64,000 nt of DNA from Meridianimarinicoccus sp. MJW13 (GTDB lineage: Bacteria; Pseudomonadota; Alphaproteobacteria; Rhodobacterales; Rhodobacteraceae): assembly GCF_014901205.1 (NCBI RefSeq), contig NZ_JACNMU010000008.1, positions 62,001 through 126,000 of the forward strand, written 5' to 3'. Below, one piece after another: positions 18,447-37,670 of the stretch. Positions within the stretch are counted from its first letter, which is position 1, and the number at the start of each line of letters is the position of its first letter. Under the pieces are notes generated by a model. That model was not told the origin of the DNA, did not search any database, and was given only the letters and a program-made list of their open reading frames with translations. Made by a program: the position numbers and the translations under genes.

Positions 18447-19601
18447 CTAGATCTCGTCCCTCAAAACGGCGCTGTCCCGATCTGCCATCTGCGCCAGCTT
18501 GATCTGCATCAGCAGCGACATCTCGTCGATGTTGGTCCATTCGTCCAAGACCTTGCCGTCGCGAATGTGGAAATGGCTCATCCCCATGACCTGAAGCCGC
18601 TTGCCGGTTGGGGCGCCCAGTTCTTCGAAGACACCCCAGCCCAGGTGATGCCCCTCGACGATCCAGCGCACCGCAACCTTGGTGCCGCCCTCCTCGCAAG
18701 GGGTCGAGCAGATGTGCTGGGGGATGTAAAACCCGTCCGGGATGGTCGCATACAGACCCACGGTCTGATGGGTGATGGCGCCGTGGCCGTAGAGTTCCTT
18801 CATCAGCGGGCCGTGATATTGCACGGTGGGCGCATAGACCTCGCGGATCTGGCCGAACATGCGGCGGTTGTGGATCTCGTGCAGCCAGCGCAGCACCTCG
18901 GCTTCTTCGGCGGTGTTGGCGATTGAAGTATCGCACTCGGTCTCGGGCGGGTATTGCCCGATCATCCGGCGGTTTTCACCCATATCCACGGCCAGCAGCC
19001 CCTTTTCGAAATAGGGCCGGGCCAGATCCTCGGCAAAGACCTGCGGGTCCAGGCCGATCTGCTTGATCTGCGCCATGCTGTCGACCACCAGCCATTCGCG
19101 ATAGATCTTGTTCTCGTAGACCATGCAGTCGGCAATGGTGCGCGCGACAAAACTGCGGCCCGTCGGTTTGCCATAGATGCCCGGCTGGCTGTGCCGCCCG
19201 GCCCCGGTCACCAGATGCGAGGTGTAGAAGCCGTCATCCTCGTTGCCATTCCAGATGACATGAGTGGCCATGCCGCGCCGCTCGGGCAGCATGAACAGCC
19301 GCTTGATGGTGTCATGCACCACGTCCTCGCGATTGTAGATGGTGCCGGTGGCGCCATAGACCACGCAGTTGTGCGTGTAATGGGTATAGATCAGGCCCAC
19401 GTCGCGCTCGTCCCAGATGCGATGGGTGCAGCGCACGATATAGTCCACGATGTCGGTATAGATCGGATCGAAGCCGCGCATGGGCTGCGCGCGCGGTCGG
19501 TCGGTGGGCACCATGTCAACGAAATCCCGACGCTCGGACTGCAGCACGGCGGGCGGAGCATCGGCCCCCTTTTCGCTGCCGTTTGTGCCTTTGGTCGCCA
19601 T
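18447..19601 (-). CDS. Two-domain SnoaL/NTF2-like protein
   Basis: 384 residues with two SnoaL/NTF2-fold domains, roughly 50-200 and 230-375. Shared motifs are GKPTGRSFVARTIADC in the first domain and GAPTGKRLQVMGMSHFHI in the second. These match three paralogues at 29605-32551. The SnoaL fold covers cyclases, isomerases, lyases and hydratases acting on small hydrophobic or polyol-derived molecules, so the reaction cannot be named. The start at 19601 follows ACGGAGAT; longer frames run through the regulatory region. The gene is divergent from the island's importer, with a shared operator-like motif between them, so it probably belongs to the same pathway. Confidence 0.8.
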   Translation of the reverse strand: MATKGTNGSEKGADAPPAVLQSERRDFVDMVPTDRPRAQPMRGFDPIYTDIVDYIVRCTHRIWDERDVGLIYTHYTHNCVVYGATGTIYNREDVVHDTIKRLFMLPERRGMATHVIWNGNEDDGFYTSHLVTGAGRHSQPGIYGKPTGRSFVARTIADCMVYENKIYREWLVVDSMAQIKQIGLDPQVFAEDLARPYFEKGLLAVDMGENRRMIGQYPPETECDTSIANTAEEAEVLRWLHEIHNRRMFGQIREVYAPTVQYHGPLMKELYGHGAITHQTVGLYATIPDGFYIPQHICSTPCEEGGTKVAVRWIVEGHHLGWGVFEELGAPTGKRLQVMGMSHFHIRDGKVLDEWTNIDEMSLLMQIKLAQMADRDSAVLRDEI

Positions 19602-19649
19602 GTCGATCTCCGTCCCTGACTGTCGATTAGACTCCAGCAACGCATAGTC

Positions 19650-19664
19650 TGCATTCGTTTGCAA
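19650..19664 (-). promoter_or_regulatory. candidate LacI operator before the SnoaL gene
   Basis: On the minus strand this reads TTGCAAACGAATGCA: a central CG with TGCA half sites on both sides. It lies about 50 bases before the start at 19601. Related sites at 19891-19908 and 37722-37739 share TTGCAAWCGWATKC. Confidence 0.6.
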
Positions 19665-19890
19665 GACAGATTGGCCGTCGGTGACATGTATCTGGCGCGC
19701 CGCGACTCGCCACACGGTTTTGGCACCCAATACGAAGGGAGGCGTTGCAATGCGGGCCATCCAGCCACCACAGGCGCATGAAAACTCTGTTTCACACGCG
19801 GCGTCCGCGGGAGAATTCACCCTTCTTCTCTTGCGTTAGCCGCTGCGCCTGTCCTCGCCTTTTGCAATTTTCAATGCGCTTCACAAAATA

Positions 19891-19908
19891 TTTGCAATCG
19901 AATTCATG
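19891..19908 (+). promoter_or_regulatory. candidate LacI operator before the importer operon
   Basis: TTTGCAATCGAATTCATG matches the sites at 19650 and 37722 over TTGCAAWCGWATKC. It lies 95 bases before the binding-protein gene. The 402-base gap 19602-20003 otherwise shows only this site, the one at 19650-19664 and an extra TTTGCAATTTTCAATGCG at 19861. Confidence 0.55.
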
Positions 19909-20003: not shown

Positions 20004-21239
20004 ATGAATTTCCATTTCAAATCGGCGACCGCCGCCTCTGCCCTGATCGTTGCGGGCGGCATGGCCTTTGCCGATTGCGGTATCGAAAGCGGTTCGGTCC
20101 GCATTCTGTCCAACGACTTCGAAGCGCTGCACGCCGTCGCCGACTGGGCCGAGAAATGCGCCTCGGACACCGTTGAGGTGACACGCAACCAGACCGAAGA
20201 GCACAAGAACATCCAGGTGCCGGCCCTGTCGATCGACCCGGCCACCTATACCGTCGCGATTGTCGCCACAAACTCGCTGGTACCGCTGCTCAATGACGGG
20301 CTGGTGCGTCCGCTGGACGATCTGGTGGCCAAGCACGGTGGCCAGTTGACCAACAGCCAGAAGATCATTGTCGACGGCAAGATCATGGCGATTGCCTTCA
20401 TGGCAAACTCGCAGCACCTGTTCTACCGCGAGGATGTGCTGGCCGAACACGGCATCGAGGTGCCGACCACCTTTGATGAGGTGTTTGCCGCCGCCGACAC
20501 ACTGCAGGCTGCCGGATACGCAACGCCCCTGTCCTCGAACTTCATGCCGGGCTGGAACATTGCCGCTGAATTCGTGAACACCTACCTCGGGACCGGCGCC
20601 GACTTCTTCAAACCCGGCAGCGCCGAACTGGACATCAACAATGAAAATGGCATCGCCGTGTTGGAAAACATGAAGCGCATGCTCGACTACATGAGCCCGG
20701 ATTGGGCGACCTTCGACTCCAACGCGCAGAAACCCGTCTGGGAAGCCGGCGAGTCCGTGCTGTCGCTGTCCTGGGGCTCGCGGGCCGGCGCCTATATCGC
20801 CGACGACAGCCCGGCACCCGAGGTCGCGGCCAGCACCGCCTTCGCGGCGTCCCCGGCCCTTGGCGACAACAACATTCCGACCGCCGCCCTGTGGTGGGAC
20901 GGGTTCGCGATCGCCAAGAACATCTCGGATGAAGACGCGGAAGCCTCGTTCATTGCCATGATGAATGGCATCTCGCCCGAGATGATGGCGGAAAACGCCA
21001 GTGCCGCCGTCTGGCTTATCGAAGGTTACGAGCCTACCAAGGCAGCCTCGGGCGTGATCGACGGTCTCGGCAAGGGCGCCCGCCCCTATCCGATGCTGCC
21101 CTACATGGGCATGTTGCACACCGCGCTGGGGGACAACCTGTCCGAGTACCTGCAGGGCAAGGAATCCGCCGAACAGGCGCTGGCCGATGTGACCGCAGCC
21201 TATACCACGGCTGCGACCGAGGCCGGTTTCCTCAAGTAA
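20004..21239 (+). CDS. Extracellular solute-binding protein of a MalEFGK-type ABC importer
   Basis: 411 residues. A signal peptide (residues 1-23, cleavage after GGMAFA) precedes a two-lobe family 1 solute-binding domain (UgpB/MalE class). Typical motifs include FMANSQHLFYREDVLAEHGI and SLSWGSRAGAYI. It is the first gene of the long rightward operon and delivers the pathway's substrate to permeases 22926-24848. The ligand is unknown; family members bind oligosaccharides, glycerophosphodiesters or polyols. Confidence 0.87.
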   Translation: MNFHFKSATAASALIVAGGMAFADCGIESGSVRILSNDFEALHAVADWAEKCASDTVEVTRNQTEEHKNIQVPALSIDPATYTVAIVATNSLVPLLNDGLVRPLDDLVAKHGGQLTNSQKIIVDGKIMAIAFMANSQHLFYREDVLAEHGIEVPTTFDEVFAAADTLQAAGYATPLSSNFMPGWNIAAEFVNTYLGTGADFFKPGSAELDINNENGIAVLENMKRMLDYMSPDWATFDSNAQKPVWEAGESVLSLSWGSRAGAYIADDSPAPEVAASTAFAASPALGDNNIPTAALWWDGFAIAKNISDEDAEASFIAMMNGISPEMMAENASAAVWLIEGYEPTKAASGVIDGLGKGARPYPMLPYMGMLHTALGDNLSEYLQGKESAEQALADVTAAYTTAATEAGFLK

Positions 21240-21251
21240 ACCATTGATACC

Positions 21252-21277
21252 GGGGAATGCCTGACCGGGCGTTCCCC
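21252..21277 (+). terminator. intra-operon hairpin after the binding-protein gene
   Basis: GGGGAATGCC pairs with GGGCGTTCCCC through about 10 bp including one G-U pair, beginning 12 bases after the stop. It has no U-tract. Like the hairpin at 15512, it probably favours binding-protein mRNA over downstream genes. Confidence 0.4.
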
Positions 21278-21370
21278 ATCTCACCCCTTCCGGAATTTTC
21301 GGCATCGCCACTCGCCCGCGCGGCGAAACCGGAGAGATTTACCTGCTGCCAGGACGACGGGGAGGTCGCC

Positions 21371-21532
21371 ATGGAATGCCAGACGCTGATCGCCGCGCTC
21401 GCCAAGGTTGGTATTCGCCCTGCACGAGAGGCCGATCTTGACGGCATCACCCGGACGGCTGTCTTCCTGAGGAGTTCGGCAGACCAGGTGAAACACTGGC
21501 TGGCGGAGGTTGACCATGACCAACCCCGTTGA
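21371..21532 (+). CDS. Small AtzG/GatC-like amidase partner protein
   Basis: 53 residues beginning with an ATG right after GGAGG (21361-21365). It is helical in composition and overlaps the amidase start by 17 bases. The position and size match AtzG/DUF4089-type small subunits, which wrap around AtzE-type amidases in the way GatC wraps GatA. The pattern TLIAALAKVGIRP followed by RTAVFLRSSADQVKHWLAEV is compatible. Assignment rests mainly on context. Confidence 0.55.
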   Translation: MECQTLIAALAKVGIRPAREADLDGITRTAVFLRSSADQVKHWLAEVDHDQPR

Positions 21533-22922
21533 CCTGACCCTTCCTGTCGTGGCCGCGCGCCTGCGCGATGGCCGCCTGACCGCCGAGACGCTGGCGCAGG
21601 CGCATCTGGATCGGATCGCCGCCCGTGACGAAGGTATCGGTGCGTTCGTGCATCTTGACGCAGAGGCGGTTCTCGCCGCTGCACGCAGCGCCGATACCGA
21701 GCTTGCCTGCGGTATCGATCGTGGTCCGCTGCACGGGATCTGCGTGGCCATCAAGGATATCTTCGACGTGGCGGGCTGGCCGGTGCGCTATGGCTCGCGT
21801 CTCTATCCCGACCGGATTGCCGCGACCGACTGTACCTTGGTGACGCGCCTGCGGACCGCCGGGGCGGTGCCGCTGGGGCTGGTGGCCACCTACGATCTGG
21901 CCATTGTCGGTCCCGGTGACGACGGGTTGTATCCGCAGCCGCGCAATCCCTGGGACCCGGCCCGTGTAACCGGTGGATCGTCGTCCGGGGTTGCCGCCGC
22001 GATTGCCGCCGGAATGGTGCGCGTGGCGCTTGGCTCGGACACCGGGGGATCGGTGCGCAGCCCCTCGGCCTATTGCGGGATTGTCGGGCTGAAGCCCACC
22101 CATGGCGGCCTGCCCCTGGACGGCGTGCTGCCGCTGGCCCCTTCCTTTGACGTGCCCGGCGCCATGGGCCGAACCGTGGTCGAAACCGCGCTGCTCTTTG
22201 GCGCGTTGCGCGACGACCCGGTGGAACTGCCCGCCCTGTCCCTTGATGGCAAGCGCATCGGCTATGACCGTACCTGGAGCCTGTCGCCGGACGCCGATCC
22301 GCAGATCGTCCATGCGACGGATGCCGCGGCCTCGACGCTCAGCCTGTGTGGGGCCGAAATTCGCAGGGTGACCCTGCCGCCACTGTCCCTGATGACCGCC
22401 GCGGCAGCGGTCCTGATCCACGCCGAGGGGTTGCAGACCCATCGCGCGCATCTGGCGCGCGACGGTGGCCGCATGGGGCGGATGGCCTACCAGTCGATGG
22501 CCGCCGGTGCCGTCCTGACCGAAACCGATATCGCGCAGGCGCGCCGCGCCGCCGATCTGTTGCGCGCCCGTATCGACGCCCTGCTGCAAGAGGTCGACGC
22601 GCTGATCCTGCCAACAACCCTGACCCCGGCCCCGGCCTTCGCCGATTTCGCAGACGGCCTGGCCCGATGGAGCCCCATGTGCACCCTGCCGTTCAGCATG
22701 ACCGGCCATCCGGCCCTGTCGGTACCGATGGGGTTTGCCGACGGGCTGCCGCTGGGGTTGCAGATCGCCGGACGACACGACGCCGAACCCCTGCTGCTGC
22801 AAATCGCAGCCGGCTTCGAGCACACCACCGATCACGGCGCGCTGGATGCCGCGTCCCTTGCCCGCCATCCACTTCCTGCTGCCCGCCAAGCCCCTGTTTT
22901 CATGACTGAGGAGACGACATAG
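21516..22922 (+). CDS. Amidase-signature-family hydrolase
   Basis: 468 residues. The Ser-cisSer-Lys triad is readable: Lys in [11 protein letters not shown] near residue 80, cis-Ser in [13 protein letters not shown] near 154 and the nucleophile in [15 protein letters not shown] near 177. Such enzymes hydrolyse C-N amide bonds of small amides, ureas or carbamates. It lies inside the importer operon, between the binding protein and the first permease, so the imported substrate or an intermediate probably carries an amide. The ATG at 21516 follows GGAGG; a TTG six bases earlier is also possible. Confidence 0.85.
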
Positions 22923-22925: not shown

Positions 22926-23954
22926 ATGCCGCACAAGACGTTTCTCGCTTTCATATGGCCGTCGCTCCTGGCGATGATCCTGTTCATCGCGTTGCCGATC
23001 ATCTCGGTGGCGTATCAATCCCTCTATGTCGAACACGAGCAGATCCTCGTGGTGGGCGAATCCTGCGGACCCTTCGGCTGCACCCAGGAAGTCAGCGTGG
23101 ATGCCGAGGCCATGTCCCAGCTGCGCGCCGATCAGCCTGCCGGGCGTTTCAACGGGTTCGGCACCTATTCCAACGCCAGCCACCTGGCGACGGATGAGAT
23201 CAGCGAGATCTTCGCGACCTCAGAGAACTTCTCCGAGATCCGCACCCGGATCATGAACCTGCCCTTCTACAAGGCGTTGGCCTTCACCCTGGCCTATACG
23301 TTCGTCGTGACGCCGCTGGTCATCATCCTGGGGTTCATCATCGCGGTGGTGGTCAACTCGGTGCCGTCGCTGCTGAAAGGTCCGGTGATCTTCTTCTCGC
23401 TGATCCCGATGCTGGTGACGCCGCTGGTCGGCTCGCTGGTGCTGTTCTGGATGATTGACAGCCGGGGCATCATCGGGGCCGGGTTGCAGGCGCTGTTCGG
23501 GGATCCGACGCTGTCGCTGAAAGCCTCGCCGACGCTGACGTGGATCACGCTGTTCGTCTACGGGGTCTGGCACTCGGCCCCCTTCGCCTTCGTGGTGTTC
23601 TACGCCGGTCTGCAAACCGTGCCGAAGGACACCATGGAAAGCGCCATGGTCGACGGGGCCAGCCGGTGGGAGCGGATCCGCTTCGTCACCATTCCCTACC
23701 TGATGCCGCTGGCCACCTTCATCGCGCTGATGCAGCTGATGGACAATTTCCGGGTGTTCGAACCGATCATCGGCTTCTCGGCGGCGGCCAGCGCCACCTC
23801 GCTCAGCTACCTGATCTACAACGATCTTCGGGCCGCTGAATCGCCGCTCTTCGGATCGGCGGCGGCGACCTCGATGCTGACCATTCTCGGGGTCATCATC
23901 CTGCTGCTGCCTGTCCTGCGCCGCAACTGGCGCGAATTCAATCGCAAGACGTAA
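22926..23954 (+). CDS. ABC importer permease, MalF/UgpA type
   Basis: 342 residues, a membrane protein. The first span (about residues 8-30) is followed by a periplasmic segment of about 85 residues, then further spans to residue 335. The EAA loop that docks on the ATPase reads ESAMVDGASRWERIRFVTIP near residue 238. It begins 3 bases after the amidase stop and pairs with the permease at 23967. Confidence 0.88.
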   Translation: MPHKTFLAFIWPSLLAMILFIALPIISVAYQSLYVEHEQILVVGESCGPFGCTQEVSVDAEAMSQLRADQPAGRFNGFGTYSNASHLATDEISEIFATSENFSEIRTRIMNLPFYKALAFTLAYTFVVTPLVIILGFIIAVVVNSVPSLLKGPVIFFSLIPMLVTPLVGSLVLFWMIDSRGIIGAGLQALFGDPTLSLKASPTLTWITLFVYGVWHSAPFAFVVFYAGLQTVPKDTMESAMVDGASRWERIRFVTIPYLMPLATFIALMQLMDNFRVFEPIIGFSAAASATSLSYLIYNDLRAAESPLFGSAAATSMLTILGVIILLLPVLRRNWREFNRKT

Positions 23955-23966
23955 GGGAGGCGCGTG

Positions 23967-24848
23967 ATGTCAAATCCGGCAGATCAAAGACCGCTACCGC
24001 TCAAGCTGCTGGCCACAACCATCGTGCTGTTGTGGCTGGTCATCGCCGCCTTCCCCTTCCTGTGGACCATGTGGGGCAGCTTCAAGGTCGAGGGCGATTT
24101 CTTCAGCCGCGCCGACTGGATGAATGCCATCACCGGCCCCGTGACCCAACGCCAGTACGGCGGGGCCTTCACGCTGGCAGGCTATGACGGCGCCTGGGTC
24201 CAGCAGGAATTCTGGCGCGCGGTCATCAACACCGCCATCGTCACCGTCTGCGTGGTGGTGATCTCGCTGACGCTGGGCACGCTGGGCGGCTATGCGCTGG
24301 CCCGGTCGGGGTTCAAATACACCTTCTGGCTTCTGATGGCCGCACTGGTGTTCCGGGCCATGCCACATGTCACGCTGGTGTCGGGCTACCTGCTGCCGTT
24401 CTTCCAGCTCAACATCTGGGGCTATCTGCCCACCACCATCATCGTGCTGGTGGCAATCAACCAGCCCTTTACCCTGTGGATGCTGCATTCCTTCTTCCTG
24501 TCCATCCCCAAGGATCTGGACGAGGCGGCAATGGTCGACGGCTGCACCCGGTTCCAGGCCTTCCGCCTGGCGATCATCCCGGTGATGTGGCCGGGGGTTG
24601 TGACCACGGGGCTGTTCAGCTTCCTGCTGGCCTATAACGACTTCACCGTCACCTCGATGCTGCTGAGCCAGGAAAACCAGACGATGATCCCCAAGATCAA
24701 CGCCTTCCTCGGCTCCACCCAGGAAGAGGGCAAGGTGATGTACGCGGTTGCCGCGGTGGTCTCGGCCATCCTGCCGCTCTTCGTGCTCATTCTCTTCTTC
24801 CAGCGCCAGATTGTCAGCGGTCTGACCGCCGGCGCCGTCAAAGGATAA
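23967..24848 (+). CDS. ABC importer permease, MalG/UgpE type
   Basis: 293 residues, six predicted spans. The EAA loop is EAAMVDGCTRFQAFRLAIIP near residue 187. The ATG at 23967 follows AAGGGAGG; a GTG one codon earlier is possible. It forms the heterodimeric channel with the preceding permease and lies 12 bases before the ATPase gene. Confidence 0.88.
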   Translation: MSNPADQRPLPLKLLATTIVLLWLVIAAFPFLWTMWGSFKVEGDFFSRADWMNAITGPVTQRQYGGAFTLAGYDGAWVQQEFWRAVINTAIVTVCVVVISLTLGTLGGYALARSGFKYTFWLLMAALVFRAMPHVTLVSGYLLPFFQLNIWGYLPTTIIVLVAINQPFTLWMLHSFFLSIPKDLDEAAMVDGCTRFQAFRLAIIPVMWPGVVTTGLFSFLLAYNDFTVTSMLLSQENQTMIPKINAFLGSTQEEGKVMYAVAAVVSAILPLFVLILFFQRQIVSGLTAGAVKG

Positions 24849-24859: not shown

Positions 24860-25915
24860 ATGGCCAGACTTCAACTCAAGAACGTCAACAAGCGCTGGGG
24901 AAACTTCGTCGGCGTCGACAACTTCGACCTTGATATCGCGGATCAGGAGTTTCTCGTGCTTCTGGGCCCTTCGGGTTGCGGAAAATCCACCACCATGCGG
25001 ATGATCGCCGGGCTGGAGGATGTGACCGAAGGCCAGATCATCATGGGCGAAAAGGTCGTCAATGATCTGGAGCCCAAGGATCGCGACATCTCGATGGTGT
25101 TCCAGTCCTACGGGCTTTATCCGAACCTGTCGGTCTATGAAAACATCCGCTTCCCGCTGCGCGTCCGCAAGGTTCCCAAGGACCAGCACGACGCCAAGGT
25201 GATGGAGGCGATCCGGATGGTGGAACTTGAGGATTTCATGGACCGCCGGCCGGCGGAATTGTCGGGCGGCCAGCGCCAGCGCGTCGCCCTGGGCCGTGCC
25301 ATCGTGCGCAAGCCCACCGTGTTCCTGATGGATGAGCCGCTGTCCAACCTCGATGCCAAGCTGCGGGTCTCGACGCGGGCGCAGATCAAGAACCTGCAAT
25401 CCAAGCTGCGCGTCACCACCGTCTATGTGACCCATGACCAGATCGAGGCGATGACCCTGGCCGACCGCGTCGTGGTGATGAACGCGGGCAAGATCCAGCA
25501 GGTGGGCACCCCGACGGACATCTACGACAACCCGGCCAACACCTTCGTGGCCAGCTTCATCGGCTCGCCCGCGATGAACCTTGTCGAGGGCCGTCTGGAC
25601 AACGGCGTCTTCACCGCCGAGGGCATCCGGGTCGAAGGCCTGCCGCGCACCTCGTCGGGCAATGTGACCCTGGGGTTCCGCGCCGAGGACGCCGAGATCA
25701 CGCAAAGCGAGGGCCAGATTTCCGCGCCGGTCTATTCGATCGAGCTTCTGGGCGAGGCGTCGATGATCACATGGCGCCTGGCCGGATCGCTGGTGTCGAT
25801 CAAGACCCACAAGGAATACCGCGCCGAGATCGGCGATATCGTCAAAGCTAGCATTCCCGCCGGAATCTGCCATCTGTTCGACACCGCTTCGGGAGAAAGG
25901 ATAGCCCACGGATGA
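24860..25915 (+). CDS. ABC importer ATPase, MalK/UgpC type
   Basis: 351 residues, the usual MalK length. Walker A is GPSGCGKST near residue 37, the signature is LSGGQRQRVALGRA near 134 and Walker B is VFLMDEPLSNLD near 154. The switch histidine is in YVTHDQIEAM. A C-terminal OB/TOBE regulatory domain runs from about 235. Its stop overlaps the next gene's start (ATGA), which ties the importer to the catabolic genes. Confidence 0.9.
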   Translation: MARLQLKNVNKRWGNFVGVDNFDLDIADQEFLVLLGPSGCGKSTTMRMIAGLEDVTEGQIIMGEKVVNDLEPKDRDISMVFQSYGLYPNLSVYENIRFPLRVRKVPKDQHDAKVMEAIRMVELEDFMDRRPAELSGGQRQRVALGRAIVRKPTVFLMDEPLSNLDAKLRVSTRAQIKNLQSKLRVTTVYVTHDQIEAMTLADRVVVMNAGKIQQVGTPTDIYDNPANTFVASFIGSPAMNLVEGRLDNGVFTAEGIRVEGLPRTSSGNVTLGFRAEDAEITQSEGQISAPVYSIELLGEASMITWRLAGSLVSIKTHKEYRAEIGDIVKASIPAGICHLFDTASGERIAHG

Positions 25916-26403
25916 CACCGGAAGAACAAGCCGAGGCAACCCGCCAGGTGATCCTGCGCATGGAGGCGGCCCTGGGGGCCAATTCCAACGACATGGGCGC
26001 GCATTTTCACGAGGATTTTCGCTGGATGGGCAACCAGGGCTGCGGCACCAAACACGGCCTTCAGGCCTTCCGCAGCAACTGGCAACTGCCCCTGCGCGCC
26101 GCCTTTACCGAACGGGAGTACAAGACCGAACGCTTCATCTGTGAAGGTGACTGGGCGTCGTGCTTTGGCCATATCGAGGCCACGCATTCGGGCCCCTTCA
26201 TGGGCCATGCCCCCACCGGCAAGCGCGTGAAGATCCCGTACATGGACTTCTGGAAGATCGTGGACGGGCGCATCGCGGACAATTGGGTCTCGGTGGACTT
26301 CGCCCATGTGCTCGCCCAGTTGGGCGAAGACGTTTTCGGTGGCCGTGGCTGGGAAGCCTTTGACGACGGCACCGCCATCCCTCCGACACCGCAAGAGGCC
26401 TGA
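25912..26403 (+). CDS. Single-domain SnoaL/NTF2-like protein
   Basis: 163 residues, one SnoaL fold. It carries [17 protein letters not shown] and [11 protein letters not shown], the same PTG-[KR] and acidic-strand pattern found in the four two-domain paralogues of the island. It starts within the stop of the ATPase gene and ends 1 base before the dehydrogenase gene, so it is translated as part of the same unit. The reaction is unknown; SnoaL proteins include hydratases, isomerases and cyclases. Confidence 0.78.
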
Positions 26404-29608: not shown

Positions 29609-30618
29609 TGCGCGGCTTCAACCCAAAATGGCGCGACGTGCCGCATTTCATCAACGGCATCACCTACGAGATCTGGGAGGCGCGCCAGATCGGCAGCCTG
29701 CTCAGCCGCTACGCGCCGGGGCTGATCGTGCGCTCGCCCGCTTCGGTGCTGATCGACAATACCAATGTCATTGCCGCGACCATGGCCACGCTGGCCGAGT
29801 TTCCCGACCGGGAACTGCTGGGCGAGGATGTGATCTGGTGCGAGGATCCGGAAGGCCGGACCGAGACCTCGGAGGCGTTTCTGTCGTCGCATCGGCTGAT
29901 CTGCACGGCCACGCACAGCCGTCCCGGCGCCTACGGCGCGCCGACAGGCAAGCGGCTGGCCTATCGCATTCTGGCCGATTGCGCGATCCGCGACGATGCG
30001 GTCTATGACGAATGGCTGGTGCGCGACCAGTCGGCCATTGTCCAGCAGATGGGCTTTGACGTGGTGGACTGGACCCGCGATCTGATCGCGCGCGAGGGCG
30101 GGCCGGAAAACTGCGTTCCGCCCATGACACCCGCCAACGACGTGCCCGGCCCCTACGACCGACACGGCAACGACAATCCCTGGGGCCAGAAGCACGCCGA
30201 TCTGCTGACCGCGATCATGGCGGGCCATCTGGATCTGATTCCTGCGGTCTATGACCGGGGCGCCGCCCTGCACTATCCCGGCCATGTCACGACGCAGGGC
30301 CGGGGCGAGGCCGATCAGTTCTGGATGGGCCTGCGCGCGGCCTTTCCGGATGCCGCCTTTTCCATCGACCACGTCATCGGGCGCGACGACCCGCTGATGC
30401 CGCCCCGCTCGGCGGTGCGCTGGTCACTGCACGGAAAGCATTCCGGCTGGGGCCGCTTTGGACGACCGACCGGGGCCGAGGTCTATGTGATGGGCATCAG
30501 CCATGCCGAATGGGGGCCCTTCGGCGACGGCACCCCCAGCCTGCGCCGCGAATGGACCCTGATTGATGAAACCGCGATCTGGAAACAGATCCTGCTCAAG
30601 ACCGGACTTCACCCATGA
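29605..30618 (+). CDS. Two-domain SnoaL/NTF2-like protein, paralogue 1
   Basis: 337 residues, two SnoaL/NTF2 domains (about 20-160 and 195-330). Domain 1 has GAPTGKRLAYRILADC and DEWLVRDQ; domain 2 has GRPTGAEVYVMGISHAEW and ends with DETAIWKQILLKTG. It is adjacent and closely similar to the next two genes, so tandem duplication is the obvious origin. The start overlaps the LacI stop (ATGA); a second ATG follows directly. The duplicated acidic and His-rich motifs suggest an enzyme acting on a polar intermediate, but no family member with a known reaction can be named from the sequence. Confidence 0.8.
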   Translation: MMRGFNPKWRDVPHFINGITYEIWEARQIGSLLSRYAPGLIVRSPASVLIDNTNVIAATMATLAEFPDRELLGEDVIWCEDPEGRTETSEAFLSSHRLICTATHSRPGAYGAPTGKRLAYRILADCAIRDDAVYDEWLVRDQSAIVQQMGFDVVDWTRDLIAREGGPENCVPPMTPANDVPGPYDRHGNDNPWGQKHADLLTAIMAGHLDLIPAVYDRGAALHYPGHVTTQGRGEADQFWMGLRAAFPDAAFSIDHVIGRDDPLMPPRSAVRWSLHGKHSGWGRFGRPTGAEVYVMGISHAEWGPFGDGTPSLRREWTLIDETAIWKQILLKTGLHP

Positions 30619-31598
30619 AAGACTTCTCGAACCAGTTCAAGGATCTGCCCGACTACATCCTGAAGATCACCAGGGAGATCTGGGAAGATCGCGGCCTGTC
30701 AACCTTGCATCACTACTATGGCAAGGACATCCCGATGCGGTTTCCCTCCGGTCTGGTGCGCGGCAACGAAGGAGTGATCGACGGCACGCTGGCCACCTTG
30801 TGTGAATTCCCCGACCGGCAGCTGCTGGGCGAGGATGTGATCTGGTCGCAGGACACGCAGGACACGGGCCGCTACCTGTCCTCGCACCGGCTGGTGACCA
30901 TGGGCACCCATACCGGGCATGGCGCCTTCGGGCCGCCCACCGGCAAGAGCTTCACAATCCGCGTCATTGCCGATTGCGCCGCCAAGGCTGATGTCATCGA
31001 CGACGAGTGGCTTATCCGCGACGTGGGCGGCATTGCCCGGCAACTGGGCTGGGATCCGGCGGAATACGCCCGCTACCAGATCCAGACCGAAGGCGGTCCT
31101 GACAAATGCCAGCGCCCGTTTCACCCCGACCACGATGTGGACGGACCCTATATGGGACGCGGTAACGACAACGAATGGGGCCAGCGGCTGGCCAGCATCC
31201 TGACGCAGATGATGGACAAGGATTTCGCCGTCATCCGGCGCGAATTCGACCGCGCGGCGCGCACCGAACACTGGGGCGCGCGGGGCGGCTGGTCCTATGA
31301 TTTCGCGGAAACCGACTGGATGCGGCTGCGATCTTCCTTCCCGACGGCGAAATTCGCGATCCACCACACCATCGGCCGCGCCGATCCCGGCACCCCCTAC
31401 CGGGCCGCGGTGCGCTGGTCGCTGACCGGCGCCCACAGCGGGCATGGCTTTTTCGGTGCGCCGACAGGGGCGGAAGTCCATGTCATGGGCGCCACCCACG
31501 CGGAATGGGGCGAATGGGGCCTGCGCCGCGAGTTCTCGATCATCGACGAGGTCGCCATCTGGAAACAGATCCACCTGCACACCGGGAACGTGGAATGA
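30615..31598 (+). CDS. Two-domain SnoaL/NTF2-like protein, paralogue 2
   Basis: 327 residues with the same architecture as its neighbours. GPPTGKSFTIRVIADC and DEWLIRDVGGIARQLG mark domain 1, and GAPTGAEVHVMGATHAEW marks domain 2. Both ends overlap adjacent genes by 4 bases (ATGA), so the three proteins are probably made together and could form a hetero-oligomer. It is less similar to paralogue 3 in the linker (about residues 160-215). Confidence 0.8.
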   Translation: MKDFSNQFKDLPDYILKITREIWEDRGLSTLHHYYGKDIPMRFPSGLVRGNEGVIDGTLATLCEFPDRQLLGEDVIWSQDTQDTGRYLSSHRLVTMGTHTGHGAFGPPTGKSFTIRVIADCAAKADVIDDEWLIRDVGGIARQLGWDPAEYARYQIQTEGGPDKCQRPFHPDHDVDGPYMGRGNDNEWGQRLASILTQMMDKDFAVIRREFDRAARTEHWGARGGWSYDFAETDWMRLRSSFPTAKFAIHHTIGRADPGTPYRAAVRWSLTGAHSGHGFFGAPTGAEVHVMGATHAEWGEWGLRREFSIIDEVAIWKQIHLHTGNVE

Positions 31599-32551
31599 GC
31601 CGCTTCGCCACGCTTCCGGATTACATTCAAGGCGTGACCTTCGAGATTTGGGAGGGCCGACAGATCGCCTCTCTGCGCGACAGTTACGGCACCGATATGG
31701 TCATGCGCTCGACCCAGGGGCTGATCCTCGGGACCGACGGCGTCATCAAGGACACGCTGGCCGCGCAAGCGGCCTTTCCCGACCGGGAAATCCTTGGCGA
31801 CGATGTGATCTGGTGCGGGACCGAGGCCGAAGGCTACTTGTCCTCGCACCGCTCGGTCATCACCGGCACCCACAGCGGCCATGGCGTTTTCGGCGCGCCC
31901 ACGGGCCAGCGCGTCACCACCCGCTGCATTGCCGATTGCTTCGTCCAGGATGACGTCATCACCGACGAATGGCTTTGCTATGATGTCTCGTCGATGGTGC
32001 AACAACTGGGCCACAGCCCGCGTGACTGGGCGGCGGCGCAGATCGCCCGCGAAGGTGGGCCGGACACGGCGACGCGGCCCTTCACCCCGGATCAGGATCG
32101 TCCCGGCCCCTATGCGGGCACCGGCAATGGTCACGCGTTGGGAGACCGTCTGGCCGACATCCTGAGCCGCATCATGGACTACGACGTTGCCACGGTCGGG
32201 CGGGATTACGACCGCGCCGTGAACTTTTACCATGCAGGCGGCGTCACCGGCTGGGGCCGTCCGGCGCTGGAAGCCGAATGGATGCAACTGCGCGCGGCCT
32301 TTCCCGACGCCCGTTACACTGTTCATCACAAGATCGGCCGCGATGATTGCGGCGAACCCGACCGCGCCGCCATCCGCTGGAGCCTGGACGGCACGCACAG
32401 CGGCCATGGCCGCTTTGGCGCGCCCACCGGGGTGCAGGTGCACATCATGGGCTTCACCCATGCCGAGTTCGGCCCCTGGGGCCTGCGCCGGGAATGGAGC
32501 CTTTGGGACGAAACCGCGATCTGGAAACAGATCCTGCTGGCCGGAGCCTGA
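31595..32551 (+). CDS. Two-domain SnoaL/NTF2-like protein, paralogue 3
   Basis: 318 residues. GAPTGQRVTTRCIADC and DEWLCYDVSSMVQQLG mark domain 1, and GAPTGVQVHIMGFTHAEF marks domain 2. The ATG at 31595 overlaps the upstream stop; a longer upstream frame lies inside paralogue 2 and is rejected. A gap of 165 bases with no recognisable gene separates it from the bicupin gene. Confidence 0.8.
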   Translation: MSRFATLPDYIQGVTFEIWEGRQIASLRDSYGTDMVMRSTQGLILGTDGVIKDTLAAQAAFPDREILGDDVIWCGTEAEGYLSSHRSVITGTHSGHGVFGAPTGQRVTTRCIADCFVQDDVITDEWLCYDVSSMVQQLGHSPRDWAAAQIAREGGPDTATRPFTPDQDRPGPYAGTGNGHALGDRLADILSRIMDYDVATVGRDYDRAVNFYHAGGVTGWGRPALEAEWMQLRAAFPDARYTVHHKIGRDDCGEPDRAAIRWSLDGTHSGHGRFGAPTGVQVHIMGFTHAEFGPWGLRREWSLWDETAIWKQILLAGA

Positions 32552-32716: not shown

Positions 32717-33700
32717 ATGACATCCCAAGACATGACCTCGCGCATCGTGCGCTATGGCGAGTTGCAACCCTGCAAGTCCGCCTTCATCGACGCCCATACG
32801 CCGGGCAGCGACCAGAAAGAGAACTTTACCATCATCGGCGGCGGCGTCTCGGAAAGCCCCGACCAGCACGTGCACATCGGCCTGCCGCACGGGTTCAACA
32901 TCGGGGCCGCAGGCCAGCCGCCGCGCTGCCGCAACTCGCTGCACGACCATCACACCGCTGAAGTCTTCTTCGTCCTGAAAGGCCGCTGGCGCTTTTTCTG
33001 GGGCCGCTGGGGCACCGCCGGCGAGGTGGTGCTGGAAGAAGGCGACATCTTCAATATTCCCACCGGCATCTTTCGCGGGTTCGAGAACATCGGCACCGAT
33101 TACGGCATGATCATGGCGATCCTCGGCGGCGACGATGCCGGGGGCGGCGTCATGTGGGCGCCGCAGGTGATCGAGGATGCCGCCGATCACGGCCTCGTTC
33201 TGGGTGAGAACGGTAAGCTCTATGACACCAAGAAAGGCCAGCAGTTGCCCGACGGTGTGAACCCGATGCCGCTGATGAGCGACGCTGAGCTGGCCAAACG
33301 GCCCGAGCCCACCACCGCCGATGTGCTGCCCAACCACGTCGCCCGCTACTGGGATCTGGTGGCGCTGGCCGACAAGACCCCGGCGCTGGTGATCGGAGAG
33401 AACGGGGTGCTGCGCGACAGGCCCGGCTTCGAGGTTGGCTTCATGACCCGCGACAGCGCCAGCGAAGAAATGCACGCCCATGACAAGCCCTCGGTCCTGA
33501 TGCCGATGCGCGGCCACTGGCGCGTGCGCTGGGACGGCAATGGCGACCATGCGGCGGGCGAAGCGGTGCTGGCCCCCGGCGACACCATGTCGGTGCCCGA
33601 GAACCTGCGCCACAACGCGGTGCCCTCGATGACCGGCGAGGCCAGCCTGTACCATGTGGTGGCCACCGATGATCCGGCGGGCCACACTTGGCAAGGCTGA
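32717..33700 (+). CDS. Bicupin protein of unknown function
   Basis: 327 residues with two cupin domains. The first carries the metal motif NSLHDHHTAEVFFVLKGRWRF near residues 75-95, with a glycine-rich turn (EEGDIFNIPTGIFRGFENIG) after it. The second carries EEMHAHDKPSVLMPMRGHWRVR near 250-270. Bicupins include gentisate-type dioxygenases, quercetinases and isomerases. The His/Glu set suits a divalent metal, but I cannot name the reaction. It lies in the island between the SnoaL cluster and the MetE-like gene. Confidence 0.72.
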   Translation: MTSQDMTSRIVRYGELQPCKSAFIDAHTPGSDQKENFTIIGGGVSESPDQHVHIGLPHGFNIGAAGQPPRCRNSLHDHHTAEVFFVLKGRWRFFWGRWGTAGEVVLEEGDIFNIPTGIFRGFENIGTDYGMIMAILGGDDAGGGVMWAPQVIEDAADHGLVLGENGKLYDTKKGQQLPDGVNPMPLMSDAELAKRPEPTTADVLPNHVARYWDLVALADKTPALVIGENGVLRDRPGFEVGFMTRDSASEEMHAHDKPSVLMPMRGHWRVRWDGNGDHAAGEAVLAPGDTMSVPENLRHNAVPSMTGEASLYHVVATDDPAGHTWQG

Positions 33701-33775: not shown

Positions 33776-34900
33776 ATGGGCAAAATCCTCACCACTCATG
33801 TCGGCTCTCTGCCGCGCACGCAGACCGTCGTGGACTTCATCTTTGCCCGTGAACGCGGCACCGACTATGACCCGGCAGAATTCGATGCGGCCATGACGCA
33901 GGCCGTGGATGACACGGTTGCCAAACAGGTCGCCGCCGGGATCGACATTGTCAGCGACGGCGAAACCTCGAAGATCAGCTATGCCACCTATGTGAAGGAT
34001 CGCTACACCGGCTTTGACGGCGACAGCCCCCGCAATGCGCCCGCCGATCTGAAGAAATTTCCCAGCTTCCTGAAACGTCTGGCCGCCGATGGCGGAACTC
34101 CGCAATACGCCCGTCCCATGTGTGTGGGCGAGGTGCGCTCGAAAGGTCAGGGCGAGCTGGAAAAGGACATCGCCAACCTGAAGGCCGCAATGGAAAAACA
34201 CGGGGTGGAGCGCGGCTTCATGAACGCGGCCTCGCCCGGCGTGATCTCGCTGTTCCTGCAGAACGATTTCTACAAGACGCGCGAGGCCTATCTGGCCGCG
34301 CTCGCCGACGCGATGAAGGCGGAATACGAAACCATCGTCGCCAGCGGGCTGGACCTGCAACTGGATTGCCCCGATCTGGCCCTGTCGCGGCACATGCTGT
34401 TCAACGATCTGACGGATGACGAATTTCTGAAAATCGCGGCCAGCCATGTGGAGGCTCTGAACCACGCGCTGTCGGACATTCCCGCCAACAAGATCCGCAT
34501 CCACATCTGCTGGGGCAACTACGAAGGCCCGCATGTCTGTGATATCCCGATGGCCAAGATGTTCGACACGCTGATGTCTGCCAAGGCGGACTACGTTCTG
34601 TACGAAACCTCGAACCCGCGCCACGGCCATGAATGGACAACCTTCCGGGATCGCAAGGCGGACATTCCCGACAGCAAGATCCTGGTGCCGGGGGTTGTGG
34701 ATACCACCACCAATTTCGTCGAGCACCCCGAGCTGGTGGCCCAGAGGATCGCGCGCTTCACCGATATCGTCGGTGCGGACCGGGTGATCGCCGGATCGGA
34801 CTGCGGGTTTGGCACCTTCGCGGGCTTCGGCGCGGTCGATCCCGAGATTGCCTATGCCAAGCTGGGCGCGCTTGCCGAAGGTGCGGGACTGGTGAAATGA
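33776..34900 (+). CDS. MetE C-terminal-domain-like zinc protein (methionine synthase II family)
   Basis: 374 residues, one TIM-barrel domain like the catalytic half of cobalamin-independent methionine synthase. The zinc/thiol-activating residues are kept: HIC in RIHICWGNYEGPH near 242-244, Glu in LYETSNPRHGHEW near 274 and Cys in GSDCGFGTF near 344. It lacks the N-terminal MetE half, and TTHVGSLPRT at the start is typical of stand-alone members. Those act as alkyl transferases to thiols, for example to coenzyme M or a corrinoid-independent acceptor. In this island it may demethylate or cleave a substrate. It starts after AAAGAGG. Confidence 0.75.
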   Translation: MGKILTTHVGSLPRTQTVVDFIFARERGTDYDPAEFDAAMTQAVDDTVAKQVAAGIDIVSDGETSKISYATYVKDRYTGFDGDSPRNAPADLKKFPSFLKRLAADGGTPQYARPMCVGEVRSKGQGELEKDIANLKAAMEKHGVERGFMNAASPGVISLFLQNDFYKTREAYLAALADAMKAEYETIVASGLDLQLDCPDLALSRHMLFNDLTDDEFLKIAASHVEALNHALSDIPANKIRIHICWGNYEGPHVCDIPMAKMFDTLMSAKADYVLYETSNPRHGHEWTTFRDRKADIPDSKILVPGVVDTTTNFVEHPELVAQRIARFTDIVGADRVIAGSDCGFGTFAGFGAVDPEIAYAKLGALAEGAGLVK

Positions 34901-34937
34901 TCGGCACGTTGACCCCGGACAGCGAAGGGGCAACCCC

Positions 34938-35633
34938 GTGACCCCGCTCGTCCTGCTGCCCGGCATGATGTGCGACGCCCGCCTGTTTGCCCCGCAGATC
35001 GCCGCCTTCGAGGGCGCGCGCCCGGTTCACGTCCTGCCGATCACCGAGGCCGACACGGTTCAGGATCTGGCCCGCCTGGTGCTGGATCGCGCCCCGGACC
35101 GGTTTGCCCTTGGCGGGCTCTCCATGGGCGGCATTGTCGCGATGGAAGTGATCCGGCAAGCGCCCGACCGGATCGCCGGGGCGGCGTTTCTTGACACCAA
35201 CCCCAAGGCCGAGGTGCCCGAGGTTGCCGCAATGCGGGATCCGCAGATGGCCAAGGCACTGGCCGGAGAGTTGCGCGCCGTGATGCGGGACGAGATGAAG
35301 CCGCTCTATCTGGCCGATGGTCCAAACAAGCCGGCGATCCTTGCGCTGTGCATGCAGATGGCCGAGGATCTGGGGCCAGAGGTGTTTGTCCGCCAGTCCC
35401 GCGCGCTGGCCAGCCGCCCCGACCAGCAAGACACCCTGCGCACCGTGTCCGTGCCTACGCTTGCCCTGTGCGGGGCCGAGGACGCGCTGTGCCCCGTGCA
35501 CCGGCATGAGTTGATCCGGGATCTGGTGCCCGGCGCGCGGCTCGAGATCATCCCGAACGCCGGGCATCTGCCCACCCTGGAACAACCCGACGCGACCAAC
35601 GCGGCCCTGCGCCGCTGGCTGGAGGCCGTATGA
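34938..35633 (+). CDS. Alpha/beta hydrolase
   Basis: 231 residues. The nucleophile elbow is GLSMGGIV near residue 58, the acid is Asp in CGAEDALCP near 181 and the histidine is in NAGHLPTLEQP near 209. This forms a complete catalytic triad. It starts with GTG after GAAGGGG, 37 bases after the MetE-like gene, and its stop overlaps the next start. It may be an esterase, lactonase or C-C hydrolase in the pathway. Confidence 0.8.
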   Translation: MTPLVLLPGMMCDARLFAPQIAAFEGARPVHVLPITEADTVQDLARLVLDRAPDRFALGGLSMGGIVAMEVIRQAPDRIAGAAFLDTNPKAEVPEVAAMRDPQMAKALAGELRAVMRDEMKPLYLADGPNKPAILALCMQMAEDLGPEVFVRQSRALASRPDQQDTLRTVSVPTLALCGAEDALCPVHRHELIRDLVPGARLEIIPNAGHLPTLEQPDATNAALRRWLEAV

Positions 35634-36322
35634 CCCCTTCTCTTCTGACCCTGCTGAACTCCGTCGATACGCCCACGGTGTGCAATGCCATCGAAGTGGC
35701 GCAAGGCAAGCGCGGCTTCAACGCTTTTACCCGTGGCACCGTGCTGGCCAGCGACCCGAAGGGGGTCATGGTCGGCCATGCGGTCACCGCGAAAATCCGG
35801 GCCTTGTCGCCCCCCAACGAGGCCCCCGACGTGATCCGGGCCCGACGGATGCAATACTACAAGACCATGGCCGAAGCGCCCAAACCCTCGGTCTGCGTGA
35901 TCGAGGATGAAGACGTGCCCAACGCCATCGGCGCCTTCTGGGGCGAGGTGAACACCACCATCCACAAGGGGTTCGGCATGGCCGGAACGCTGACCAACGG
36001 GGTGATGCGCGATCTGGGCGACATGGCGCCGGACTATCCGGTCGTTGCAGGGTCCATCGGGCCGAGCCATGGCTTCGTGCATGTCACGGCGCTGGATGTA
36101 CCCGTCACGGTTTTCGGGATGGAGGTGCGGCCCGGCGACCTGATCCACGCCGACCGCCACGGCGCGGTGGTGATCCCGCCCGAGGTGGTGGATCACCTGG
36201 AAGCCGCCATTGCCACCATGCAGGCGACCGAGCGGCTGGTGCTGGATCCGGCCCGCGGCGAAAACTTCGATTTCGCGGCGTTCGAAGCGGCCTGGTCAGC
36301 CTTTGAAAAGGCCCGCACCTAG
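35630..36322 (+). CDS. RraA-like / 4-hydroxy-4-methyl-2-oxoglutarate aldolase family protein
   Basis: 230 residues. Metal-binding features of the family are present: NGVMRDLGDM near residue 123 and GDLIHADRHGAVVIPPEVV near 165-183. Enzymes of this family split 4-hydroxy-2-oxo acids or decarboxylate oxaloacetate, while true RraA inhibits RNase E. Its place at the end of a catabolic operon, coupled to the hydrolase by an ATGA overlap, favours the aldolase role. Together with the dehydrogenases it could release a central metabolite. Confidence 0.75.
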   Translation: MTPSLLTLLNSVDTPTVCNAIEVAQGKRGFNAFTRGTVLASDPKGVMVGHAVTAKIRALSPPNEAPDVIRARRMQYYKTMAEAPKPSVCVIEDEDVPNAIGAFWGEVNTTIHKGFGMAGTLTNGVMRDLGDMAPDYPVVAGSIGPSHGFVHVTALDVPVTVFGMEVRPGDLIHADRHGAVVIPPEVVDHLEAAIATMQATERLVLDPARGENFDFAAFEAAWSAFEKART

Positions 36323-36380
36323 CGCACCCGTGACCCGAAAATAGCGCGCTTCTGGACAGGGTCCGGGGGTGCTGCCCCGC

Positions 36381-37670
36381 CTACCCGTCCTGCAACCGAT
36401 CCAGCCGCAGTTGCGCGGCACGACTGTGGCCATCCAGCCCTTCGCTGCGGCTTTGGCGCACGGCGGGCGGAGCCACGGCGCGCACGCCCTCCGGCTCCAT
36501 CCACTGATGGGTGGCCACCTTCAAATAGGCACCGACCCAAAGCCCGCCGGTATACCGCCCGGCCGCCATGGTCGGCAGGGTGTGGTTGGTGCCGCAGCAT
36601 TTGTCGGAATAGACCACGCTGGCCAGCTCCCCGATGAACAGGGACCCATAGTGCCGAAGCTTCTTCGCGGTGGCCTGCGGATCGGCGGTGTGGACTTGCA
36701 GATGCTCTGCCGCGATGTGGTCGGAATAGGCCAGCATCGCCGCCTCATCTTCGGCCACTGCGATCTCGCCATAGTCTTGCCACGCGACGCTGGCGGTCGC
36801 CGCCGTTTCCAACTCGCCCAACTGCCGCGCAACCTCGGCAATAACCCGGTCGGCCAAAGCGGCATCGGTGGTGATCAGGCCGACCCGCGTGCGCACGTCA
36901 TGCTCGGCCTGCGCCAGAAGATCGGTGGCGATGGTTTCCGCGTCACCGGTGCTGTCGGCAAGGGTGTAGATCTCGGAGGGGCCGGCCAGCTGATCGATCC
37001 CGATGGGGCCGAAGACCTGTCGCTTGGCCTCGTTCACGAAGGCATTGCCGGGGCCGACGATCTTGTCGACGCGCGGCACGGTTTCGGTGCCATAGGCCAT
37101 CGCGGCAATCGCCTGCGCCCCACCAATGCGGAAGATCCGGTCGGCACCTGACAGGTGACACCCGGCGACCATGGCCTCATGCGCATTGGGCGGCAGGCAG
37201 GCGATGATTTCTTCCACCCCTGCGACCCGGGCCGGAACGATGGTCATGATCGGCGCGGACAGAAGCGGATAGCGCCCGCCAGGCACATAGCAGCCCACCC
37301 GTTCCAGCGGAATAATCCGGTGGCCCAGATGCACACCCGGCCGGATTTCCACTTCCAGCGGCAACATGGTGGCGCGCTGCGCCTCGGCAAAGGCGCGCAC
37401 ATTGGCGATGGCAAATTCGGTGTCTGCGCGGGTCTGGGGGTCCAGCGCCGCAACGGAGGCCTCGCGCTGTGCCATGCTGACTTCGAAAGTGTCCAGGTCG
37501 GATTGGTCAAATTTCCTGGCATAGGCGCGCACGGCCCCGTCGCCCTGCGCGCGGACCGCAGCCAACACCTCGGCCACCGTCGCCGCAACATCCTGTGCAT
37601 CGGACGCGGCATTGCGCGTGGGAGCTTTGCGATGCTGTATGCCAGCAAATGACAGGTCGGAATCGGCCAC
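36381..37670 (-). CDS. HisD-superfamily dehydrogenase, second copy
   Basis: 429 residues from a GTG at 37670, with AGAAGGA upstream. The upstream ATG at 37772 is unlikely because the operator-like motif and a tandem repeat lie between it and 37670. The zinc site is intact: QAEHD near residue 256, Asp in YSDKCCGTNH near 353 and His in DGHSRAA near 415. The Glu-His pair is in AEHLQVHT near 320. It is clearly paralogous to but diverged from the enzyme at 26405 and looks like neither a fresh duplication nor the biosynthetic gene. The operator-like site puts it in the island's regulon, on the opposite strand and convergent with the RraA gene. Confidence 0.78.
   Translation of the reverse strand: MADSDLSFAGIQHRKAPTRNAASDAQDVAATVAEVLAAVRAQGDGAVRAYARKFDQSDLDTFEVSMAQREASVAALDPQTRADTEFAIANVRAFAEAQRATMLPLEVEIRPGVHLGHRIIPLERVGCYVPGGRYPLLSAPIMTIVPARVAGVEEIIACLPPNAHEAMVAGCHLSGADRIFRIGGAQAIAAMAYGTETVPRVDKIVGPGNAFVNEAKRQVFGPIGIDQLAGPSEIYTLADSTGDAETIATDLLAQAEHDVRTRVGLITTDAALADRVIAEVARQLGELETAATASVAWQDYGEIAVAEDEAAMLAYSDHIAAEHLQVHTADPQATAKKLRHYGSLFIGELASVVYSDKCCGTNHTLPTMAAGRYTGGLWVGAYLKVATHQWMEPEGVRAVAPPAVRQSRSEGLDGHSRAAQLRLDRLQDG

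Follow-up and report, generated by a model that had tools for sequence, protein, structure and literature searches.

The window analysed here, a 64,000-nucleotide stretch of the genome of Meridianimarinicoccus sp. MJW13 (Rhodobacteraceae; contig NZ_JACNMU010000008.1, positions 62,001 to 126,000; genome of 4.02 Mb in 20 contigs), carries at positions 18447-37670 a gene island that is a real, conserved and apparently jointly controlled set, present in many, mostly marine, alphaproteobacteria. From left to right the island comprises a SnoaL gene on the minus strand (Sno0), followed on the plus strand by MalE, an amidase, MalF, MalG, MalK, a second SnoaL gene (Sno1), the histidinol dehydrogenase-like HisD1, a short-chain dehydrogenase/reductase (SDR), a LacI-family regulator, three further SnoaL genes (SnoA, SnoB, SnoC), a bicupin, a MetE-like gene, an alpha/beta hydrolase and an RraA-like gene, and it closes on the minus strand with a second histidinol dehydrogenase-like gene, HisD2. 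With moderate confidence we regard the island as a LacI-controlled catabolic unit, in which a polyol- or sugar-like solute would be imported by MalEFGK and oxidised to a cleavable keto acid. A preceding annotation made from the letters of the window, here called the sequence-only reading, had proposed one catabolic unit for a polyol-like substrate, and the conserved, linked gene set in the relatives supports it. Direct observations concern the gene set, its linkage, the conserved residues, the operator motif in the relatives and the protein fold.

Conservation of the gene set

A search with the MetE-like protein as query against genome contigs yielded at least 591 stretches, 567 of them relatives among the matches listed. 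The best 80 of these 567 relatives were retained, each with flanks of up to 10 kb and some on short contigs, and families of open reading frames (ORFs) were built without annotation. The nearest relatives by protein were, according to the record titles, almost all Rhodobacterales, with one Roseibium (L053). Culturable relatives with the operon include Octadecabacter arcticus 238 and a Ruegeria strain. MetE occurred in 80 of 80 loci by construction, as the loci had been fetched with it. The other families were cupin (77 loci), SnoAB, a two-domain SnoaL family (75), LacI (73), HisD (69), Sno2x, another two-domain SnoaL family (61), SDR (58), RraA (54), Sno1 (46), MalF (45), hydrolase (41), MalG (40), MalE (38) and MalK (33); these counts run low for genes that lie past the end of a contig or are overlaid by a competing ORF, and tblastn finds more. 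Rarer were an S-adenosylmethionine-dependent methyltransferase, named after the annotation of L147, and an ORF resembling GMC-type oxidoreductases by eye, each in 11 loci. The SnoaL-MetE-like gene order of the window, sought in other genomes, was kept as LacI-SnoAB-cupin-MetE on one strand in 70 of the 80 MetE-chosen relatives, skipping the methyltransferase where present, and 65 loci had HisD upstream of this block.

Since these loci had been chosen by MetE, co-occurrence was counted independently in 295 genomes of the same family, each from a different genus. Any SnoAB match was present in 135 genomes, of which 117 with a strong match (E up to 6e-89) were used and 18 weaker ones left out; a MetE-like match was present in 116. 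Both genes occurred in 104 genomes, SnoAB only in 13, MetE-like only in 12 and neither in 166 (Fisher p = 3e-50, shared descent ignored). In 91 of the 104 genomes with both, the two genes lay within 8 kb on one contig.

Outside the family, 36 MetE-centred regions were picked to spread over identities, 34 from other families and two from other lineages of the phylum, several of them on short contigs. Twelve of these regions contained the island, whole, in part or rearranged (L156-L159, L165, L166, L169, L170, L176, L182-L184); the other 24 were without it. Two of the carrier assemblies are small, 1.4 and 1.6 Mb at 94 and 96 % completeness (G550, G453), and hold a rearranged set (L170, L169). 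In the 1.4 Mb assembly the set adjoins an aldehyde dehydrogenase and a TauD/TfdA dioxygenase (L170, 1061-3399), a possible hint at the substrate. The cluster of L166 includes an MFS permease, an HpcH/HpaI aldolase and homologues of HisD2 (70 %), Sno0 (60 %) and HisD1, with an 800-residue ORF adjoining MetE; neither MalEFGK nor RraA was found in this locus. L176, from outside the class, has an HpcH homologue of 47 % identity, an amidohydrolase and a sodium:solute symporter; RraA was not found in the locus, and its 276-residue protein had no Pfam match. The HpcH/HpaI aldolases of these two loci, in which RraA was not found, suggest that the pathway ends in a pyruvate-forming retro-aldol step. 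Each variant has either a LigK-type aldolase of the RraA fold or an HpcH/HpaI aldolase, which may catalyse the same step, but the RraA-like protein of the window scores far below the LigK cut-off.

Among more distant MetE contexts, a row of SnoaL genes was seen in one of five haloarchaeal contexts (Halobellus) and in none of three actinobacterial ones, while in a Pantoea context a single NTF2-family gene lay close by, without any further gene of the island. The cluster on the Halobellus limi plasmid (L145, 6747-13140) consists of an ABC importer, an aldehyde dehydrogenase and five ester cyclases and, like the island, its SnoaL gene row ends in a MetE-like gene; unlike the island it is archaeal, and a profile search of the 25-kb stretch revealed no HisD, cupin or RraA. 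Plasmids of Rhodococcus (L144, 8814-16354) and Dietzia (L149, 8824-16338) have a common block of RpiR regulator, beta-propeller protein, MetE-like protein, 2-oxoglutarate oxygenase, YaaH transporter, PhyH-type oxygenase and HD protein, the last two of which we take to resemble the PhnY/PhnZ pair.

Regulation

The palindrome TTTGCATACGTTTGCAAA was found in the upstream regions of three relatives (L006, L017, L025). The motif TTGCANACGTNTGCAA occurred with at most one mismatch at 30 sites in 19 of the 80 loci, compared to 0, 0, 0, 1 and 0 sites in five dinucleotide shuffles; the three loci are not independent in this count, because the motif was derived there. With at most two mismatches, 46 sites stood against 4 to 11 in the shuffles, and 33 of the 46 were located at MalE or MalK starts. 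Two sites were 119 to 157 bp apart in 16 loci. Most loci without a site end short of the importer promoter or had their promoter reach unexamined. L012 and L080 also had sites upstream of HisD2. The window presented six matches at up to three mismatches, two of them another palindrome, against a shuffle mean of 2.0. Seven places in the whole genome had two mismatches, with none better listed: one at each of the two island promoters and two at the neighbouring palindrome. A common operator at the importer promoter is well supported in the relatives by motif counts, and one at the HisD2 promoter of the window is only suggested. The LacI protein of the operon would bind these predicted operators.

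Proposed pathway

The importer MalEFGK would bring in a small solute resembling a polyol or sugar, with or without a methyl or amide group. HisD1 would oxidise a CH2OH group beside a CHOH group to the carboxylate with two NAD+, and the SDR would oxidise a secondary alcohol. Proton-transfer steps, e.g., a dehydration or isomerisation, may be performed by the SnoaL proteins and the bicupin, a lactone would be opened by the alpha/beta hydrolase, and the RraA-like aldolase would release pyruvate or a similar keto acid. Transfer of a methyl group to homocysteine, taken from the substrate or from an intermediate, is the most likely role of the MetE-like protein, which would be needed only for a methylated substrate. 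Amidase and HisD2 may be an add-on for an amide-bearing form. The substrate, the order of the steps and every enzyme activity in this scheme are what we infer from the gene set. The nearest models of the SDR, KduD and gluconate 5-dehydrogenase, were counted in favour of a polyol or sugar. MalE, for which no Pfam match was obtained at E <= 0.001, was identified by its PDB matches to sugar-binding proteins. An amide-bearing substrate had been expected by the sequence-only reading; the amidase is indeed present, but with occurrence in five of the 80 loci, four of which also have a second HisD-like gene, its role is only accessory. Searches of the open-licence literature, preprints excluded, yielded no pathway assignment for this gene set.

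Several observations weigh against the proposed pathway. No glycosidase or sugar kinase was among the 30 window ORFs scanned, so that the term sugar-like is drawn solely from the importer, the LacI regulator and the SDR type. MetE was missing from five operons (L201, L202, L203, L204, L211), in which the cupin is directly followed by the hydrolase. In the stretches covered, L201, L202 and L204 lack nothing else, apart from MalK in L204; in L203, Sno1 and SDR were unlabelled, and L211 is a 7.9-kb contig with the right part only. The five genomes had no MetE-like match at E <= 1e-60, although G119 (L211) is only 78 % complete. In L217, MetE stands apart, followed by an HpcH aldolase homologue, behind a Dpp-type importer. 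The link of MetE to the pathway thus looks looser than that of the other genes; MetE as an obligatory partner was rejected on account of the five operons, which indicate that it is optional. Finally, the single operator sites of the window are weak, because they have two to three mismatches and the genome is only mildly enriched at up to three mismatches, with 77 forward places against 53 for a control pattern.

The MetE-like protein and the bicupin

The MetE-like protein has 374 residues and is without the folate half of MetE. Its residues were aligned to MetE via the PDB profile match, with criteria from PMC7857596. The zinc ligands H243, C245, E277 and C343 were invariant in 12 of 12 diverse MetE-like sequences, archaeal ones included, as were S11, E63 and D197, which align to the homocysteine-binding Ser433, Glu484 and Asp599. 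Since all seven residues are kept, the protein looks like a homocysteine methyltransferase. It resembles the core methionine synthases MesA-MesD, as described in PMC7857596 (MesD structure 3rpd), in its 374 residues, the missing folate half, the zinc ligands HCEC and the homocysteine Ser/Glu/Asp. Unlike these, it is located in catabolic operons. With PF02965, a B12-dependent methionine synthase domain, also present in the genome, the MetE-like protein is probably not the only methionine synthase. A search of the genome for MesX gave no match, and the search control likewise matched nowhere.

Instead of transferring a methyl group, the MetE-like protein may be a zinc lyase that acts on an amino acid-like intermediate as partner of the aldolase. 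The MetE-HpcH pair behind the Dpp-type importer in L217, the joint occurrence of SDR, MetE and alpha/beta hydrolase in L220 and the dispensability of MetE in five operons point in this direction. We consider it unlikely, as all 12 sequences have the seven zinc- and homocysteine-binding residues of methionine synthase unchanged.

On three sphingomonad plasmids, relatives of the MetE-like protein (52-53 %) are surrounded by folate one-carbon genes and adjoin a small SnoaL_4/NTF2-type protein, confirmed by Pfam for one of the three plasmids. Together, the observations on the MetE-like protein fit a methyl-removing side activity without proving it. The sphingomonad contexts also bring up the breakdown of a methoxylated aromatic ring or cyclitol, in which the MetE-like protein and folate would serve demethylation, the cupin ring opening or isomerisation and the RraA-like protein a LigK-like step. 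The sphingomonad genes include MTHFR, PurU, FolD and an aminomethyltransferase-family gene, presumably LigM/DesA; LigA and an extradiol dioxygenase occur in two of the contexts, LigK in one of these, and the folate set is repeated in L174 and L178. Further, PcaD and LigK models match the hydrolase and the RraA-like protein below the cut-off. However, the recurrent families of the 80 loci (families 16-24 partly identified) included no such gene of folate metabolism or ring cleavage, and MalEFGK and LacI are unusual for aromatic compounds. The first cupin domain lacks the fourth metal His. A cupin dioxygenase site consists of three His and one Glu within one cupin domain. The bicupin model (predicted local distance difference test, pLDDT, 83) matched generically oxalate decarboxylase, MncA and quercetinase. 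In its first domain H76, H78 and E82 are kept, but the fourth position is occupied by Arg120, so it departs from the three-His-one-Glu site; the second domain has no invariant His. Altogether we regard the degradation of a methoxylated ring as quite improbable.

A bolder version of methyl removal is about as doubtful: the island would degrade an abundant methylated marine osmolyte of polyol or betaine type or a lipid headgroup, with the MetE-like protein demethylating the substrate directly as a fifth folate-independent core methionine synthase family and the SnoaL proteins as sugar-acid dehydratases or isomerases. We know of no such role for SnoaL proteins.

HisD1 and HisD2

The closest PDB match of HisD1 was HpsN (389 bits, compared to 251 bits for the best HisD). 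HisD1 is like HpsN (PDB 8v35, 8wwe; PMC11382572 and PMC11131964) in fold family, in zinc and catalytic residues and in its neighbouring clade, but differs in its gene neighbours and in a Met at the position of the sulfonate-contacting His126. According to PMC11382572, the motif GRY[AS]H of CpHpsN with this His126 is the mark of HpsN, and the published HpsN network (section 2.8) has more than 62.9 % identity. At the motif position, 69 of 69 HisD1 rows from the 80 loci read GKFPM. Among 12 more HisD1-type rows from plasmids and other families, ten read GKFPM, one GKFPI (L182) and one GKYPL (L166), none with His; HisD2 of the window reads GRYPL. Gln248, His251, Glu318, His319, Asp352, Lys353, His359 and His411 of CpHpsN are kept in 68 of the 69 rows, the last row being incomplete. 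HisD1 was 47.9 and 49.0 % identical to two dehydrogenases of 2,3-dihydroxypropane-1-sulfonate (DHPS), both partial sequences, and lies outside the network. In a tree of 31 rows, HisD1 stood beside two HpsN rows (support 95/95), HisD2 formed its own clade (100/99) and the canonical HisD on contig C18 was apart; the HisD1 clade with L166 had a support of 89/68. As long branches meet in this tree, its joins are not secure. Neither HisD1 nor HisD2 is the housekeeping histidinol dehydrogenase: the best PF00815 match of the genome (560 bits) is the one on C18, to which HisD1 is 36.0 % and HisD2 40.9 % identical.

The sequence-only reading had turned down the DHPS/sulfolactate pathway, probably rightly in view of the replaced motif and the identity below the HpsN network. 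The DHPS pathway was rejected here for the GKFPM motif, the low identity to HpsN and the gene content, and a function of HisD1 as a sulfopropanediol enzyme is unlikely. If HisD1 were an HpsN, the island would serve a variant DHPS pathway or another C3-sulfonate pathway; this is favoured by the closest PDB match and the retained lysine beside the zinc aspartate. With the sulfonate His in none of the 69 and 12 rows, identities under the network value given in PMC11382572 and no sulfolyase (such as SuyAB, CuyA or Xsc) among the window ORFs, which were the only part of the genome scanned for one, we judge it very improbable.

SnoaL proteins

All five SnoaL genes had a Pfam SnoaL match, and PF07366 found eight of the nine domains. 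The ninth, the N-terminal half of SnoA (29605-30618), was recognised by 48 % full-length identity to the neighbouring protein and by the two-domain model of that neighbour. A common PTG...ADC motif had been reported for all copies; PTG was present in nine of nine domains, but ADC in four, only in the first halves of the four two-domain proteins. In its place, the second halves have MG-x-[ST]-H, and the single-domain protein has MDF. A model of SnoB from 49 aligned sequences (mean pLDDT 96) had two SnoaL folds. By E-value, SnoB matched best in the PDB to the tandem epoxide hydrolase Lsd19 and to single-domain polyketide cyclases. Like Lsd19 (3rga) and the ester-cyclase family it has the SnoaL domain fold, with two domains per chain. 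Over the whole length it superimposed poorly on Lsd19 (TM score 0.34, root-mean-square deviation 16.7, 11 % identity), so that the domain fold alone is in common, and the setting of the island, unlike that of Lsd19, is catabolic. A SnoaL-based, polyketide-like biosynthetic cluster, suggested by the fold and these PDB matches, is extremely unlikely, since no polyketide synthase or CoA ligase was among the 30 scanned ORFs and importer, LacI and aldolase point to catabolism.

SnoA, SnoB and SnoC are mutually 48-55 % identical. Sixty-six of the 80 loci had one SnoAB gene, eight had two, one had three, and in five none was found; the triple run of the window is therefore a local expansion. The proposal that the SnoaL set forms one enzyme complex does not agree with this distribution, and as loci normally have one two-domain SnoAB gene, a complex was rejected as the general case. 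The three families Sno1, Sno2x and SnoAB recur at different operon positions, which fits better to separate steps than to a complex. The genome holds two further two-domain SnoaL genes off the island, C15:2818-3687 and C16:261213-262115 (L187, L188).

Organisation of the island and its surroundings

Gene content was checked by hmmscan with Pfam and NCBIfam models, and 30 window ORFs were scanned with Pfam. Nearly every item of the initial gene list was borne out: permeases, MalK, amidase, two Histidinol_dh proteins, SDR and LacI, as well as SnoaL domains in five genes, cupin, Meth_synt_2, alpha/beta hydrolase and RraA-like protein (Table 1). The edges of the island agreed as well; only the start of the last gene is uncertain (37652 or 37772). 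Of the many overlaps of 1-4 bases described, those of exactly four bases were found in six of 15 adjacent pairs and none of 1-3 bases, a count that depends on the start codons chosen in this analysis.

Table 1 Genes and predicted operator sites of the island in window coordinates
Feature	Position (strand)	Evidence and remarks
Sno0, two-domain SnoaL	18447..19568 (-)	Pfam SnoaL, both domains; divergent from importer; longest ORF start 19820
Weak LacI-type operator, predicted	19649..19664	2 mismatches to TTGCANACGTNTGCAA; between Sno0 and MalE
MalE-like solute-binding protein	20004..21239 (+)	PDB match to trehalose/maltose-binding protein, 9e-9
Possible small amidase partner	21257..21532 (+)	ORF only, 91 aa
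Amidase	21516..22922 (+)	Pfam Amidase, 1.3e-87; NCBIfam amidase and AtzE models below cut-offs
MalF-like permease	22926..23954 (+)	Pfam BPD_transp_1
MalG-like permease	23964..24848 (+)	Pfam BPD_transp_1
MalK-like ATPase	24860..25915 (+)	Pfam ABC_tran and OB_MalK
Sno1, single-domain SnoaL	25912..26403 (+)	Pfam; PDB match SnoaL 1sjw, 6e-9
HisD1, HpsN-like zinc NAD dehydrogenase	26405..27736 (+)	Pfam Histidinol_dh; GKFPM replacing GRY[AS]H
SDR	27822..28586 (+)	Nearest NCBIfam models KduD/gluconate 5-dehydrogenase, below cut-off
LacI-family regulator	28583..29608 (+)	Pfam
SnoA, two-domain SnoaL	29605..30618 (+)	Pfam
SnoB, two-domain SnoaL	30615..31598 (+)	Pfam; model pLDDT 96, two SnoaL folds
SnoC, two-domain SnoaL	31595..32551 (+)	Pfam
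Bicupin	32717..33700 (+)	Pfam; model resembles OxdC/MncA/quercetinase bicupins
MetE-core-like zinc protein	33776..34900 (+)	Pfam Meth_synt_2
Alpha/beta hydrolase	34938..35633 (+)	Nearest NCBIfam models PcaD-type, below cut-off
RraA-like aldolase/decarboxylase	35630..36322 (+)	Far below LigK cut-off
HisD2, second HisD-like dehydrogenase	36381..37652 (-)	Pfam Histidinol_dh; separate clade; longest ORF start 37772
Weak LacI-type operator, predicted	37723..37738	3 mismatches; upstream of HisD2
Weak LacI-type operator, predicted	37812..37827	2 mismatches; upstream of HisD2

Directly right of the island, a calcineurin-like phosphoesterase and a 1148-residue AAA_27/SMC-like protein (38037-42730) look like an SbcCD-type repair pair and mark the island edge. 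To the left, a ribose-type importer (13728-17501) probably belongs with a KduI/IolB gene (17565-18377) to a separate inositol- or uronate-like cluster. Around the importer cluster the perfect palindrome TTGCAACCGGTTGCAA, by its look a LacI-type operator, occurs twice (10158-10173 and 14456-14471).

Implications

The pair of SnoAB and MetE-like genes is carried by roughly one in three of the genera sampled from the family (104 of 295). The rearranged set kept in assemblies of 1.4 and 1.6 Mb suggests a common substrate, as small genomes usually keep genes for such substrates. If so, a sizeable marine carbon flow would pass through a pathway without an assigned substrate, and the operon would offer both a direct marker and a test set for finding this substrate.

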